Part shown: piece by piece, positions 32,005 through 41,122 of the stretch
How positions within the stretch are numbered: the stretch's first letter is position 1
Layout of the letters: each line of letters starts with the position of its first letter
Source: Thermodesulfobacteriota bacterium
Lineage (GTDB): Bacteria; Desulfobacterota; BSN033; UBA1163
Assembly (NCBI GenBank): GCA_026415035.1
Contig: JAOAHX010000016.1
Coordinates: 1-64,000 of the forward strand
Length of the DNA stretch: 64,000 nt
Reading direction: 5' to 3'
The notes under the pieces: generated by a model
What the model saw: the letters and a program-made list of their open reading frames with translations, nothing else
Told to the model about the DNA's origin: nothing
Databases searched by the model: none
Position numbers and translations under genes: made by a program

Positions 32005-33336
32005 CTATAGGATCGAGAAGTACTGCTCCAGCTCGTAGTCCGTCACCCTGGCCCGGTAACGCTCCCATTCCATCTTCTTGTTCTCGATGAATTTAAAAAA
32101 GACCTCGTCTCCCAGGGCCCTTCGGACCAGATCGCTCTTCTCGGTCACCTGGATCGCTTCCCAGAGATCCTCCGGTAGCGTCTCGATCCGGTATCTTCTC
32201 CGTTCCTTCTCGGTCATTTCGTAGACATTTCTCTCCACCGGATCCCTCAGGGGATACTTCTTCTCGATCCCCTCCAAGCCCGCCGCCAACATGACGGCAA
32301 AGGCCAGATAGGGGTTGCAGGCCGGATCCGGACACCGGTATTCGACTCGGGTGGCCATCTCCTTTCCGGGTTTGTAGACCGGAATCCGGATGAGGTCGGA
32401 GCGGTTTCGTTGGGCCCAAGAGATATAGACGGGCGCCTCGTATCCCGGCACCAGCCGCTTGTAGGAATTCACCCACTGGTTGGTGACCAGCGTGATCTCC
32501 CGGGCATGTCTCATCAGACCGGCGATATAGTGCTTGGCGATCTCGGAGAGGTGGTACTTGTCTTTCGGATCGAAGAAGGCGTTCTTCCCTCCCCGGAAGA
32601 GAGATTGATGGGTGTGCATCCCGCTTCCGTTGACCCCATAGACCGGTTTGGGCATGAAGCTGGCATAGACCCCGTTCTTGAGGGCCACCTCCTTGACGAT
32701 CAACCGATAGATCATCGTCCGATCGGCCATGGTGAGGGCGTCCGAATATTTAAGATCGATCTCGTGCTGGCTCGGGGCCACCTCATGGTGGCTGTATTCT
32801 ACGGGGACGCCCATCTCCTCGAGGGCCATCACGATCTGCTTCCGGAGGTCGCTCGCCACATCGAGGGGGGTGAGGTCGAAATAGCCCCCCGAGTCGAGAA
32901 ACTCGGGCTTTCCGGTCGAATTTTTGAAAAAGAAGAATTCGAGTTCAGGCCCGACGTTGAAGGTAAACCCCATCTTCCTCGCCCGCTCCAAATTCTTCTT
33001 CAAAACCCACCGGGGATCGCTCTGATAGGGGCTGCCATCCGGTTGGAGGATGTCGCAGAACATCACGGCCACCACATGATCGTTCGTTTTCCAGGGAAAG
33101 ATCCGGAAGGTGGAAGGATCGGGTTTGGCCACCATATCGCTCTCGTCGATGCGGGCAAATCCAGCGATCGAGGAACCGTCGAACCCCATGCCGTCCTCCA
33201 GGGCGGCCTCCAGCTCGCGGACGGTGATCGAAAAGCTCTTCAAAAACCCGAGGATGTCGGTGAACCAGAGCCGGACGAACTTGACCTTCTTCTCTTTCAC
33301 GATCCGCAACACATCCTTCTTGTTTAGCGTCGCCAT
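32005..33336 (-). CDS. glnA: Type I glutamine synthetase
   Basis: A 443-residue glutamine synthetase (glutamate + ammonia + ATP). Motifs: MGFDGSSIAGFARIDESD (beta-grasp), GPELEFFFFK, the metal-binding/active site VPVEYSHHEVAPSQHEIDL, GVNGSGMHTHQSLF with the catalytic His, LVPGYEAPVYISWAQRNRS, and the C-terminal EWERYRARVTDYELEQY. At 443 residues and with this tail it is the shorter GSI-alpha-like form without the enterobacterial adenylylation loop. It heads the minus-strand array with the LUD protein and purH-purD. A GAF-ANTAR regulator is divergent from it, which suggests nitrogen control of nearby transcription. Confidence 0.95.
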   Translation of the reverse strand: MATLNKKDVLRIVKEKKVKFVRLWFTDILGFLKSFSITVRELEAALEDGMGFDGSSIAGFARIDESDMVAKPDPSTFRIFPWKTNDHVVAVMFCDILQPDGSPYQSDPRWVLKKNLERARKMGFTFNVGPELEFFFFKNSTGKPEFLDSGGYFDLTPLDVASDLRKQIVMALEEMGVPVEYSHHEVAPSQHEIDLKYSDALTMADRTMIYRLIVKEVALKNGVYASFMPKPVYGVNGSGMHTHQSLFRGGKNAFFDPKDKYHLSEIAKHYIAGLMRHAREITLVTNQWVNSYKRLVPGYEAPVYISWAQRNRSDLIRIPVYKPGKEMATRVEYRCPDPACNPYLAFAVMLAAGLEGIEKKYPLRDPVERNVYEMTEKERRRYRIETLPEDLWEAIQVTEKSDLVRRALGDEVFFKFIENKKMEWERYRARVTDYELEQYFSIL

Positions 33337-33383: not shown

Positions 33384-34175
33384 GTGGACGGTCAACTCTC
33401 GCAGAAAGGGCCGTTGACAGGGAAGGCTTTTTTTTTTAAATTGAGGGAACCTCGAACCTGGAGGAGGCCTCTGGCTTCGAAAAAGACCTCCTACAAAGAG
33501 CAGATCAAGGCCCTGACGGAGATCAGCAAGGCCATCGCCTCGGACCGCTACCTCGACGACATCTTGAAGCTGATCGTCACGGTGACGGCCAACGTGATGG
33601 ACTCGAAGATCTGTTCCCTCTGGCTCCTCGACGAGAAGGAGAAGGTGCTGAAGATCCGGGCCACCCAGACGATGAGCGAGGAATACCTCAAGGAGAGGAG
33701 CCTCAAGCTAGGAGAAGGGATCGTCGGATACGTGGCCCAGACCCGTAAACCCCTGACGATCCTCGACGTCCTGAAGGAGCCCCGCTACAAGGAGAAAGAA
33801 CTGGCCAAGAAGGAGGGGCTCGTCTCCATGATCAGCGTCCCCCTCTGCGTCAAGGACAAGGTCATCGGGGTCATCAACTGCTATACCTCTTATCCCCATC
33901 AATTCACCGAAGGCGAGAAAGAGATCCTCACGGCGGTGGCCAGCCAGGCGGCCATCTGCATCGAGAGCACGGAGCTGATGGTGAAGACGAAGGTGATCCA
34001 GGAGGAGCTGGAGGCGAGGAAGCTGGTCGAGCGGGCCAAGGGCGTCCTGATGAGGCGTCAAGGGTTGAGCGAAGAGGAGGCCTTCAAACGGATTCGGAAG
34101 GCCAGCATGGACAGCCGAAAGAGCATGCGGGAGATCGCCGAGGCCATCCTCCTCACGGACAAGATGGGGACATAG
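33384..34175 (+). CDS. GAF-ANTAR transcription antitermination regulator
   Basis: An open frame of up to 263 codons. A GAF sensor domain spans about 60-195 (LGEGIVGYVAQTRKPLTILDV, SMISVPLCVKDKVIGVINCY). After a helix (EELEARKLVERAKGVLMRRQ) comes an ANTAR domain with GLSEEEAFKRIRKASMDS, which binds paired hairpins in RNA to prevent transcription termination. The GAF ligand is unknown. The start is doubtful: GTG at 33384 is the first conventional codon, but TTG 33441 or CTG 33471 (after GGAGGAGG) suit the predicted promoter better. Divergent from glnA, so control of nitrogen-linked transcripts is the likely role. Confidence 0.83.
   Translation: MDGQLSQKGPLTGKAFFFKLREPRTWRRPLASKKTSYKEQIKALTEISKAIASDRYLDDILKLIVTVTANVMDSKICSLWLLDEKEKVLKIRATQTMSEEYLKERSLKLGEGIVGYVAQTRKPLTILDVLKEPRYKEKELAKKEGLVSMISVPLCVKDKVIGVINCYTSYPHQFTEGEKEILTAVASQAAICIESTELMVKTKVIQEELEARKLVERAKGVLMRRQGLSEEEAFKRIRKASMDSRKSMREIAEAILLTDKMGT
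33414..33442 (+). promoter_or_regulatory. Candidate promoter and T-run upstream of the ANTAR gene
   Basis: TTGACA (33414-33419), 17 nt, TAAATT (33437-33442). A run of ten T residues (33428-33437) fills the end of the spacer. GTTGAC here also pairs with GTCAAC at 33391-33396. If the promoter is used, the conventional starts upstream (33384, 33441) would not be transcribed or would lie at its edge. Confidence 0.4.
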
Positions 34176-37484: not shown

Positions 37485-39305
37485 CTATTCGCTTTCGCTC
37501 TTGGTCAGGTCTTCAAACCGGATATCCATTCCGAGCACGCCCTTGATCTCTCCCATCTCGTTCCGGATCGGTCCGGAGAGCGTGATGCAGAGGGCCCCGG
37601 TATGTTTCGAGGTGTAGAGGTCGGTCACGTGGATCTTGCCGTCCTTCAGGGGCGCGATGAACCAAGAACGATCAGAATAATCCTCGCCCACCCCGACGTG
37701 GGCAAATTTCGACTGATCCACAGGTTGAACGATGGTGCGGGTGATCTTGATCCCGTGGATGTTGACCACATAGACATATTGCAGGTAAGGATATTCGTCC
37801 ACGAGCGACTGGAGGATCGGTTCCATCTGGGCTGGATCCATCGATTTGATGCCGGGCTCCTCGATCACCCGTTCGATGATGTGGTAGGCCATCTCCTTGG
37901 CCCTCGTCTTCAACATGTCGAATTCGGAGACGAAGATCTCGGGCAGGTACTTCCGGGCCACCTTCTCCATCTCCTGATCGGAGATGGACGTCGTCCTCCC
38001 CTCCTCGTACTGTTTCATCACCCAACGATTGATCTTCGCCACCCCCGGATGGGTCTTCTCGATCCGGTCCTTTCCGGTCAGGGCGAAGTGGGAGTTGATC
38101 CACTGGGCGATCCCCGCCAGGCCCGATTTGTCGTTGACCGAGATGGAGATGGGCCGGTTGAGGATCTTGGCGGTGTTGAAGATGTTGTAGATCTCCTCGT
38201 TCTTCAGGATCCCATCGGCATGGATGCCCGCGCTCGTGGCATTGAAGTTGGCTCCCACGAAGGGCATATTGGCCGGGATCTGGACCCCGATGTTCCGCTC
38301 GAAATAGTTGCGGATCTCGGTGATCATCGTGGTATCGACGCCGTTGTTGTGGCCCATCAGGCTGATGTATTCGATGACCAACCCCTCCAGGGGAGGATTG
38401 CCCGTCCGCTCGCCGAATCCGAGGAGGGTGCCGTTGGCCGCCGAGCAACCGTAAAGCCAGGCCGTGGTGGCGTTGATCAGGCCCTTGTGGAAATCGTTAT
38501 GGCCGTGCCACTCTAAATATTCCGAGGGAACGCCCGCATCGTCGATCATCGCCCGGATGATCTTGGGGACGCATCTCGGGAGGGCTGCGCCGGGATAGGT
38601 CACCCCGAATCCGAGGGTATCGCAGAGCCGGATCTTGACCGGGAGCTTGGCCTCCTCGGAAAGGCGCATCAGGTCCTGGGCGAAGGGAACGCAGAACCCG
38701 TAGATGTCGGCCCGGGTCACGTCCTCGAAATGGCAACGGGGCGTGATGCCCAGTTCGAGGGCCGCCGAGACGATGGAGAGGTACTCCCTCAGCACGGCCC
38801 TTCGGTTCTTCCTCAGCTTCAAGAAGATATGATAATCAGAGACCGAGGTGAGGATGCCGGTCTCCTTCAGCCCCATCTCCTTGACCAGCTTGAAATCCTC
38901 CTTGACGGCGCGGATCCAGCCGGTGATTTCAGGATACCGGTAGTTGCGCTCCTGGCACCTTCGGACCGCTTCCTTGTCCTTCTCGCTGTAGAGAAAGAAT
39001 TCGCACTGACGGATCACGCCGTTGGCCCCTCCCAATTTATGGAGCATGTCGAATAGGTCGACGATCTGCTCCACCGTGTAGGGAGGCCTCGCCTGCTGGC
39101 CATCCCGGAAGGTCGTGTCCGTGATGAAGATCTCCTCGGGAGGGTCGATGAAGACAAACCGGTTGTCGAATTCGATCCTGCAGACCTCGTCGTAAGGGAA
39201 GATGTGACGGTAGAGATTCGGCTCCTGAGTGTCGATGAGCGGAAACTGGACGTTGGCGGTCTTGGCAAGGATCGCTCTCTTCTTTTTCGTCAGGACCATT
39301 GGCAT
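37485..39305 (-). CDS. HMGL-type acyl-CoA:oxoacid synthase fused to a Cache-like domain
   Basis: A 606-residue protein. Residues about 55-330 form the HMGL TIM barrel (ITDTTFRDGQQARPPYT, LCDTLGFGVTYPG, the metal-binding EWHGHNDFHKGLINA, GERTGNPPLEGL) as in isopropylmalate, homocitrate and Re-citrate synthases. A helical region (about 340-480) follows. Residues about 490-605 resemble a Cache (PDC) sensor domain: VYVVNIHGIKITRTI, GEDYSDRSWF and ALCITLSGPI with GEIKGVLGMDI. No signal peptide or membrane helix, so the sensor would be cytosolic. The Re-citrate synthase of syntrophic anaerobes is a plausible role by context. Neighbours are acyl-CoA synthetase and aspS. Confidence 0.8.
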   Translation of the reverse strand: MPMVLTKKKRAILAKTANVQFPLIDTQEPNLYRHIFPYDEVCRIEFDNRFVFIDPPEEIFITDTTFRDGQQARPPYTVEQIVDLFDMLHKLGGANGVIRQCEFFLYSEKDKEAVRRCQERNYRYPEITGWIRAVKEDFKLVKEMGLKETGILTSVSDYHIFLKLRKNRRAVLREYLSIVSAALELGITPRCHFEDVTRADIYGFCVPFAQDLMRLSEEAKLPVKIRLCDTLGFGVTYPGAALPRCVPKIIRAMIDDAGVPSEYLEWHGHNDFHKGLINATTAWLYGCSAANGTLLGFGERTGNPPLEGLVIEYISLMGHNNGVDTTMITEIRNYFERNIGVQIPANMPFVGANFNATSAGIHADGILKNEEIYNIFNTAKILNRPISISVNDKSGLAGIAQWINSHFALTGKDRIEKTHPGVAKINRWVMKQYEEGRTTSISDQEMEKVARKYLPEIFVSEFDMLKTRAKEMAYHIIERVIEEPGIKSMDPAQMEPILQSLVDEYPYLQYVYVVNIHGIKITRTIVQPVDQSKFAHVGVGEDYSDRSWFIAPLKDGKIHVTDLYTSKHTGALCITLSGPIRNEMGEIKGVLGMDIRFEDLTKSESE

Positions 39306-39325: not shown

Positions 39326-41122
39326 TTAAACTTTCAGCTTGATCCAGAGTTCATCGAGCTGTTTTGCATCGACCCTGGAAGGGGCGTCCGTCATCAGACA
39401 GGTCCCCTTCTGGGTCTTCGGAAAGGCGATCACGTCCCGGATCGACCCCGAATGGGTCAGGATCATGACCAGACGATCGAACCCGAAGGCGATCCCCCCG
39501 TGGGGAGGCGTGCCATATTCGAGCGCCTCCAGGAGAAACCCGAACCGCTGCCTCGCCTCCTCCTCGCCCATCCCCAACTTTTCGAAAAGGAGGGACTGAA
39601 CCTCCTTCAGGTGATTCCGGATGCTCCCCCCCCCGATCTCCGAACCGTTCAGGACCAGGTCATAGGCCTTGGCCTTCACCTCTTCGGGACGGTCCTTCAG
39701 TTTCGAGAGGTCTTCGTCTTTGGGCGCGGTGAAGGGATGGTGAACCGCGACATATCGGCCCTCTTCAGGGTCATATTCGAGCAGCGGAAAATCCAGGATC
39801 CATACAAAACGATACTCCTCCTCCGGAATGAGGTTCAATTTCCGGCCGAGATGGAGCCGAAGATTGGCCAGGGACTGGTTCACCACCCTGGATGCCCCGG
39901 CGATGAAGAGGAGGAGGTCCCCCTCTCGGGCCTCCATCCTCTCCTCCACCTTCCTCCGTTCTTCCGCACTCAGGGATTTCTGCAGAGGTGACTGCCACTC
40001 CCCCGTTCCGACCCTCGCAGAGATCAAGCCTTTGGCCCCGTAATCGTAAACGAACCGGGTAAGGTCGTCGATCTCCTTCCTCGAAAAATTGGCCCCTCCC
40101 TTCACATTGATCGCCTTGACGATCCCTCCCTGGGCCAATGCCTCCTCGAAGATCTTGAAGGTCGTGCCTTGCAACAGGGAGCTGAGGTCCCGCAACTCCA
40201 GGCCAAACCGAAGGTCGGGTTTGTCCGTCCCGTAGCGATCCATGGCCTCGTCGTAACTTAAAACAGGGAAGGGGGTCTTGAGGTCGATCCCCATCACCTC
40301 CTTGAAGAGATGGACCATCAATCCTTCCATCGTCCTCCGGATATCCTCGACGGTGACAAAGGACATCTCCACGTCGATCTGTGTAAACTCGGGCTGCCGG
40401 TCGGATCGAAGGTCCTCGTCCCTGAAACACCGGACGATCTGGAAGTAGCGGTCATAGCCTGCGACCATCAGGATCTGTTTGAAGAGCTGAGGGGACTGGG
40501 GAAGGGCATAAAAATGGCCTGGACTCAGCCGACTGGGAACGAGAAAGTCCCTGGCGCCCTCAGGGGTCGATTTGGTGAGCATGGGCGTTTCGATCTCGAG
40601 AAAACCGAGGCGGTCGAAATAGGCCCTCACCTCCTTGGCCAGCCTGTGCCGGAGCATGAGGTTTCTCTGAAGGCTTGGCCTCCTGAGGTCGAGATACCGG
40701 TATTTGAGGCGGGTGTTCTCCCCCACCCCCTCTTCATCTTCGATGAGAAAGGGCGGGGTCTTGGAGACATTGAGGATCTTCAACTCCCGGGCGACCACCT
40801 CGACCTCTCCCGTGGGGAGTTTCGGGTTGGCCGTCCCCTCGGGCCTCAAAAGGACCTCTCCTTTAACCCCGACCACATACTCGCTCCTGAGACCCTGGGC
40901 CTTCTCATGGGCCTGGCGGCTGGCCTCCGGACTGAAGACGACCTGAACCAGGCCCTGGCGATCCCTCAACTCGATGAAGATAAGCCCTCCGAGGTCCCTT
41001 CTCTTCTGAACCCATCCCAAAAGGGTCACCTCCCGGCCCGAGTCCTTTCTGCGAAGTTCTCCGCAATAATCGGTCCGCCTCCAGTCTCCAAGCAGGTCGA
41101 TCGTCACCTTCGATTCATTCAT
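39326..41122 (-). CDS. aspS: Aspartate-tRNA ligase
   Basis: A 598-residue bacterial class IIb synthetase. OB-fold anticodon-binding domain at the N-terminus ([20 protein letters not shown]), motif 2 [19 protein letters not shown] with [18 protein letters not shown], a GAD-insert region, and motif 3 [19 protein letters not shown] with [11 protein letters not shown]. Whether it also charges tRNA-Asn cannot be read from these residues alone. Encoded 20 bp before the HMGL-Cache gene; its start is the ATG at 41122. Confidence 0.96.

Follow-up and report, generated by a model that had tools for sequence, protein, structure and literature searches.

The gene at positions 37485-39305 on the minus strand of the window (the whole 64,000-nucleotide stretch of Thermodesulfobacteriota DNA that was analysed) encodes an HMGL-type synthase with a C-terminal Cache module, and this fusion is confirmed as real. 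The best explanation, which we regard as probable, is that the product is a Re-citrate synthase of the Clostridium kluyveri type, in which a cytosolic amino-acid-sensing Cache module serves as a predicted allosteric domain replacing LeuA_dimer. The amino-acid nature of the ligand, its identity and its effect on activity are what we infer from the comparisons below. The open reading frame has 606 codons with an ATG start, and the product has a length of 606 aa and a mass of 68.9 kDa. The following features were assigned to the locus:

37485..39305, minus strand: predicted Re-citrate synthase with C-terminal Cache module, whole gene (open reading frame and profile matches)
38307..39128, minus strand: HMGL-like catalytic (beta-alpha)8 domain, residues 60-333 (PF00682, alignment, model)
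37941..38306, minus strand: post-HMGL helical subdomain, residues 334-455 (weak HCS_D2, PF22617, and model)
37824..37940, minus strand: linker and long N-terminal helix of the Cache module, residues 456-494 (helix 461-481 in the AlphaFold2 model)
37500..37823, minus strand: Cache (PDC) module, residues 495-602 (profile and AlphaFold2/Foldseek)
37659..37670, minus strand: R546-x-W548-F549, aligned with R126-x-W128-Y129 of PctA (HMMER alignment and ortholog conservation)
37614..37616, minus strand: Y564, aligned with PctA Y144 (HMMER alignment and ortholog conservation)
37524..37526, minus strand: D594, aligned with PctA D173 (HMMER alignment and ortholog conservation)
39326..41122, minus strand: aspS (aspartyl-tRNA synthetase), same-strand neighbour 20 bases upstream of the gene (gene neighbour)

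A Pfam search with the 606-aa protein gave an HMGL-like match (PF00682) at residues 60-333 with an E-value of 4.2e-30 and a weak HCS_D2 match (PF22617) at residues 350-399. The synthase part can be aligned to homocitrate synthase. Residues R67-D68, E194, H267, H269 and H362, which we take to be counterparts of the metal and substrate residues in LeuA and homocitrate synthase, are invariant in 54 orthologs. At the other end of the protein, residues 495-602 match the Cache-type PDC domain MCP-like_PDC_1 (PF22673) with an E-value of 4e-15 and 56.7 bits, above the curated cut-off of 27 bits; the dCache_1 family (PF02743) is matched at 1e-8, under its own cut-off. These values come from the profile search that the sequence-only reading of this DNA had suggested. 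According to the Pfam matches and the model, the tail has one dCache_1 module, versus two in dCache_1. Cache domains are usually extracytoplasmic and lie between two transmembrane helices, although this is not a strict requirement; the tail does not have this setting. The protein contains no transmembrane stretch, the highest 19-residue Kyte-Doolittle mean being 1.18. The sequence-only reading had placed a Cache module on a soluble synthase, citing the hallmarks GEDYSDRSWF, ALCITLSGPI and GVLGMDI. All three are found in the translation, and the PF00682 and PF22673 matches, the Cache fold and the lack of a transmembrane stretch agree with that proposal.

The structure of residues 456-606 was modelled with AlphaFold2 from an alignment of 70 diverse ortholog tails, and the mean pLDDT was 91.3. 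A Foldseek search of the PDB with this model, a comparison likewise suggested at the outset, retrieved Cache domains: the best match was the sensor domain of KinD (4e-8), followed by Campylobacter Tlp3 with leucine, valine or isoleucine (5e-8 onward), YkuI (1.5e-6) and PctA, PctB and PctC (about 5e-6); Mlp24/37 were retrieved as well. The sequence profile of the tail alone found Tlp3 at 2e-11, KinD as second best at 1.9e-10 and PctA at 1.3e-7. Both PF22673 and PF02743 are matched by all 70 tails, and YkuI_C (PF10388) is weakly matched by 25 of them. A full-length model (pLDDT 90.3) has a catalytic part that matches the structures of homocitrate synthase and LeuA. The tail is not the LeuA-C domain, or another known domain, that the sequence-only reading had named as the contrary outcome. 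A LeuA-C identity is ruled out, as LeuA_dimer (PF08502) is not found by Pfam in the 606-aa protein, the fold matches are Cache sensors, and the LeuA (L003) and CimA (L004) of the same genome do carry PF08502. The Cache module stands where LeuA, and likewise CimA, has its regulatory domain; for LeuA this had been proposed from the sequence.

The tail shares its fold with the dCache_1AA sensors (PctA, PctB, PctC, Tlp3, Mlp24/37) and can be aligned with them; unlike them, it is a single C-terminal module on a metabolic enzyme with no transmembrane helices. Another relative is YkuI_C of Bacillus subtilis YkuI (PDB 2bas/2w27), a principally intracellular domain of the Cache superfamily that also lies C-terminal to an enzyme domain. 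However, YkuI_C belongs to a different Cache family, and the enzyme to which it is joined, a c-di-GMP EAL domain, works in signalling and is no metabolic synthase.

In the amino-acid motif of PctA, R126 binds the carboxylate, W128 is a Trp of the pocket, Y144 is a further motif position, Y129 is a structural aromatic, and D173 is a key residue (PMC10104139). The HMMER alignment of the tail with PctA is gapless from before Y121 to past Y144 and sets D594 opposite D173. Four of the five motif positions (R126, W128, Y144 and D173) are kept as R546, W548, Y564 and D594, whereas the fifth, Y121, is lost; this position is variable and is occupied here by E541. The residue two positions past PctA Y144 is an invariant Ser (S566), as against Asp in PctA. 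Within the tail, conservation at the pocket motif residues is among the highest. Among 112 tailed orthologs, R546 is kept in 107, W548 in 112, F549 in 111 and D594 in 112, and the Y564 position holds Tyr in 98 and Phe in 10. In the 70-sequence alignment, only W548, S566, L572 and D594 are invariant. The motif is therefore incomplete compared with that of dCache_1AA, and the tail may still work like an amino-acid sensor. Two orthologs of family f34 (L040 and L050) have Cys at the Y564 position (GVCTSRIT and GICTSRIT), which may point to another ligand in their lineage.

The ligand might instead be a 2-oxoacid or another non-amino carboxylate such as pyruvate, 2-oxoglutarate or citrate, in which case the module would sense a substrate or product of the enzyme and not an amino-acid end product. 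KinD ranks first among the fold matches and second among the profile matches, and one of its structures contains pyruvate (4jgp, among the sensor-domain entries 4jgo-4jgr). Its R131, replaced in the R131A mutant 4jgq, is aligned with R546, so that an Arg at this position is common to both proteins. The substrates and products of the enzyme are also carboxylates. On the other hand, KinD is a transmembrane histidine kinase with pyruvate as ligand, and it has Ala at the position of D594, which is Asp in every tailed ortholog; an invariant Asp fits amino acids better (PMC10104139). We consider a non-amino ligand somewhat unlikely. An amino acid is favoured over a 2-oxoacid with moderate confidence, because the invariant D594 occupies a motif position that is Ala in pyruvate-bound KinD. 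The earlier expectation of a small carboxylate effector thus stands in part: the tail does appear to have a ligand site, but R546, W548, Y564 and D594 resemble the alpha-amino-acid site of PctA and not a site for a small plain carboxylate.

In this phylum the enzyme usually bears the tail; the fusion is not peculiar to this genome. We surveyed 297 genomes from across the phylum and found an ortholog in 145, two of these being cut by contig ends; the tail is present in about 139 of the 145. In four genomes (G016, G034, G212 and G294), both the match and the reading frame end at about residue 460. The order around G250 has the gene in 92 of 149 genomes, and it is tailed wherever it is uncut. In this order, the single-contig genome G585 contains one strong homolog, which is 63% identical and tailed (71.8 kDa from the MAKWNPQ start), carries all pocket residues and has aspS as upstream neighbour; PF00285 is absent from G585. 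Another genome of the same order, G639, has a normal ortholog and beside it a divergent second homolog (G639:C191:1547-2734; 33% identity) with a frame of about 457 aa that matches residues 54-455 only. Of the tailed orthologs, 127 had sufficient flanking sequence, and aspS lies upstream of 70 of these; it lies upstream of none of the 35 tail-less ones.

When named genomes were scanned, orthologs with the tail turned up in Desulfovibrio, Desulfocarbo, Syntrophales and Syntrophorhabdus, as well as in MAGs of Nitrospirae, Spirochaetes, Lentisphaerae, Elusimicrobia, Termititenax, Omnitrophota and Fibrobacteres. In the same scan, the orthologs of anammox Planctomycetes, about 64% identical to the 606-aa protein, were tail-less. 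A homolog is present in 19 of 199 Bacillota genomes, always without the tail. Relative to the sampled Bacillota and planctomycete members, which end at about residue 460, the Cache module is an addition. No separate Cache genes were seen beside the tail-less orthologs. On the catalytic-domain tree, the tail-less sequences of Planctomycetes, Firestonebacteria and Bacillota, together with two from the phylum, fall into one (starred) group; this tree took in the paralog copies L136 and L137, and the tree used for the AU test was built without both. Six changes of tail state are needed on the tree, yet a single split between tailed and tail-less sequences is not rejected (AU test, p 0.16), and the present distribution may therefore reflect gain or loss of the tail.

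Cache and PAS modules often dimerise receptors, and the tail could be a structural or oligomerisation module exerting no ligand-driven control. The tail-less orthologs indicate a self-sufficient catalytic part; since they are kept in many genomes, the tail is presumably dispensable for catalysis. However, the strictest positions of the tail include the pocket residues W548 and D594 (112/112 each) and R546 (107/112), and a structural tail would have no need for this Arg and Asp. A purely structural role therefore appears unlikely. Even a bound ligand need not be allosteric, as the module could serve oligomerisation.

As to its catalytic identity, the protein very probably represents a C. kluyveri-type Re-citrate synthase. 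Re-citrate synthases (EC 2.3.3.3) of the C. kluyveri and Syntrophus aciditrophicus type have a homologous HMGL-type catalytic domain, and that of S. aciditrophicus is listed as known and isolated (PMC12016533). In Kuenenia, 13C data indicated that citrate is made without an annotated citrate synthase, and the 13C/2H tracing study proposed a Re-citrate synthase gene whose product shares 55.1% identity with the C. kluyveri enzyme (PMC8027424). In the same work, acetate tracing suggested Si stereochemistry, a signal that the authors attribute to a side population (PMC8027424). Candidates in other anammox genomes are 55-58% identical to the C. kluyveri Re-citrate synthase (PMC8862662). The Kuenenia gene is presumably the ortholog seen in our scan, and the kinship of the present protein to the C. 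kluyveri enzyme is indirect: it runs through the anammox orthologs, to which it is about 64% identical and which appear to be of the kind given as 55-58% identical to that of C. kluyveri.

The distribution of the gene points in the same direction. With Si-citrate synthase scored by strong PF00285 matches, 118 of the 297 genomes had this gene only, 119 had Si-citrate synthase only, 27 had both and 33 had neither. The avoidance has a Fisher p of about 5e-26, uncorrected for kinship; counted per family, 26 had this gene only, 44 Si-citrate synthase only, and 17 were mixed. PF00285 was also missing from 15 of 18 gene-bearing Bacillota genomes that were checked separately. The other HMGL paralogs of the genome are LeuA, CimA and a homocitrate-synthase-like enzyme. 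The suggestion of a Re-citrate synthase, already made from the sequence, has thus gained ground through the identity of about 64% to the anammox candidates, the near-exclusion with Si-citrate synthase and the paralogs that cover the LeuA, CimA and homocitrate-synthase-like functions.

The protein could still be another Claisen-type synthase, one that forms homocitrate, citramalate, isopropylmalate or an unknown alpha-hydroxyacid. The curated NCBIfam models of the homocitrate, citramalate and isopropylmalate synthase families do match it, far under their cut-offs, and the genome also encodes a Si-citrate synthase. Against this stand the separate genes for LeuA, CimA and the homocitrate-synthase-like paralog, the strong mutual exclusion with Si-citrate synthase and the kinship with the C. 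kluyveri enzyme through the anammox orthologs. An isopropylmalate, citramalate or homocitrate synthase is disfavoured by the paralogs and the genome distribution, and we regard another Claisen-type activity as quite improbable. An origin of the fusion by misassembly of two genes, or a chance match, is ruled out by its conservation across genomes and phyla, the same fusion being present in more than 100 independently assembled genomes, single-contig ones included.

Unlike most holders of the gene, the genome itself contains both the Re-type gene and a Si-type citrate synthase, so the Re-type gene is not its only route to citrate. At locus L034 (G000:C3:203906-207985), the Si-type gene lies between the genes for aconitase and the succinate dehydrogenase flavoprotein. 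The possibility that its PF00285 match reflects a methylcitrate synthase only was set aside, and it is likely a true Si-citrate synthase because of these two neighbours. Both types are also present in most members of the genus and family of this genome, while two family members have the Re type only. A division of labour is possible, with the Si enzyme serving the oxidative cycle and the Re enzyme serving glutamate synthesis.

Two further loci of this genome can be noted. The first (L136:4946-13222, G000:C12) is a cluster in which a homocitrate-synthase-like enzyme, scoring slightly below the NifV cut-off, is encoded together with a B12-type radical SAM protein, large and small subunits of aconitase type, a thioredoxin-reductase-like protein and proteins resembling LuxE and LuxC; the family-library scan covered the synthase, and the other names were read from the translations. 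It looks like a 2-oxoacid chain-elongation pathway. The second, in the window, is a gene for a GAF-ANTAR protein (33384-34175, plus strand) head to head with a glutamine synthetase gene (32005-33336, minus strand). ANTAR proteins are RNA-binding antiterminators, and a link of this pair to nitrogen control is possible.

Returning to the preferred reading, a Re-citrate synthase with an amino-acid-sensing Cache module, the homocitrate-synthase-like enzyme would condense oxaloacetate and acetyl-CoA to citrate in the cytosol. An alpha-amino acid would sit in the Cache pocket with its carboxylate on R546/W548 and its ammonium group on D594/Y564, and the long helix (461-481) joining the module to the catalytic subdomain would pass the change to the barrel. 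The entry of carbon into the branch from citrate through 2-oxoglutarate to glutamate would be tuned in this way. Glutamate or a relative is the simplest guess for the ligand, since the route to 2-oxoglutarate and glutamate begins with Re-citrate synthase, and control would most simply take the form of feedback by glutamate or by a compound of its family. The direction, feedback inhibition, is assumed by analogy with LeuA and CimA, in which the same type of catalytic domain carries a C-terminal effector domain for amino-acid feedback (Leu, Ile); their regulatory domain is unrelated, being LeuA_dimer there and Cache here.

A survey of Cache domains described them as principally extracellular, except for two small families, YkuI_C and Diacid_rec, and linked almost every family to known outputs of signal transduction (PMC4822843). 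In our literature search, outside which many subscription papers lay, no paper was found that joins Cache with citrate, isopropylmalate or homocitrate synthase, and little was found on the regulation of Re-citrate synthase. Both the catalytic family and the sensor superfamily are known; their fusion is widespread and apparently undescribed. We tentatively suggest, with somewhat less than even confidence, that this is an undescribed control of central metabolism, in which an amino-acid chemoreceptor module in the cytosol provides Re-citrate synthase with allosteric feedback in most users of the Re enzyme in the phylum and in several other phyla, and that it may be the first dCache_1-type sensor to regulate a metabolic enzyme directly. 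The conserved pocket on an enzyme makes such regulation directly testable, and tailed and tail-less orthologs at about 60% identity provide a ready comparison. Re-citrate synthase is the entry to glutamate synthesis in many anaerobes, including sulfate reducers and syntrophs, and if the proposal is true, Cache domains would have a metabolic enzyme among their outputs.
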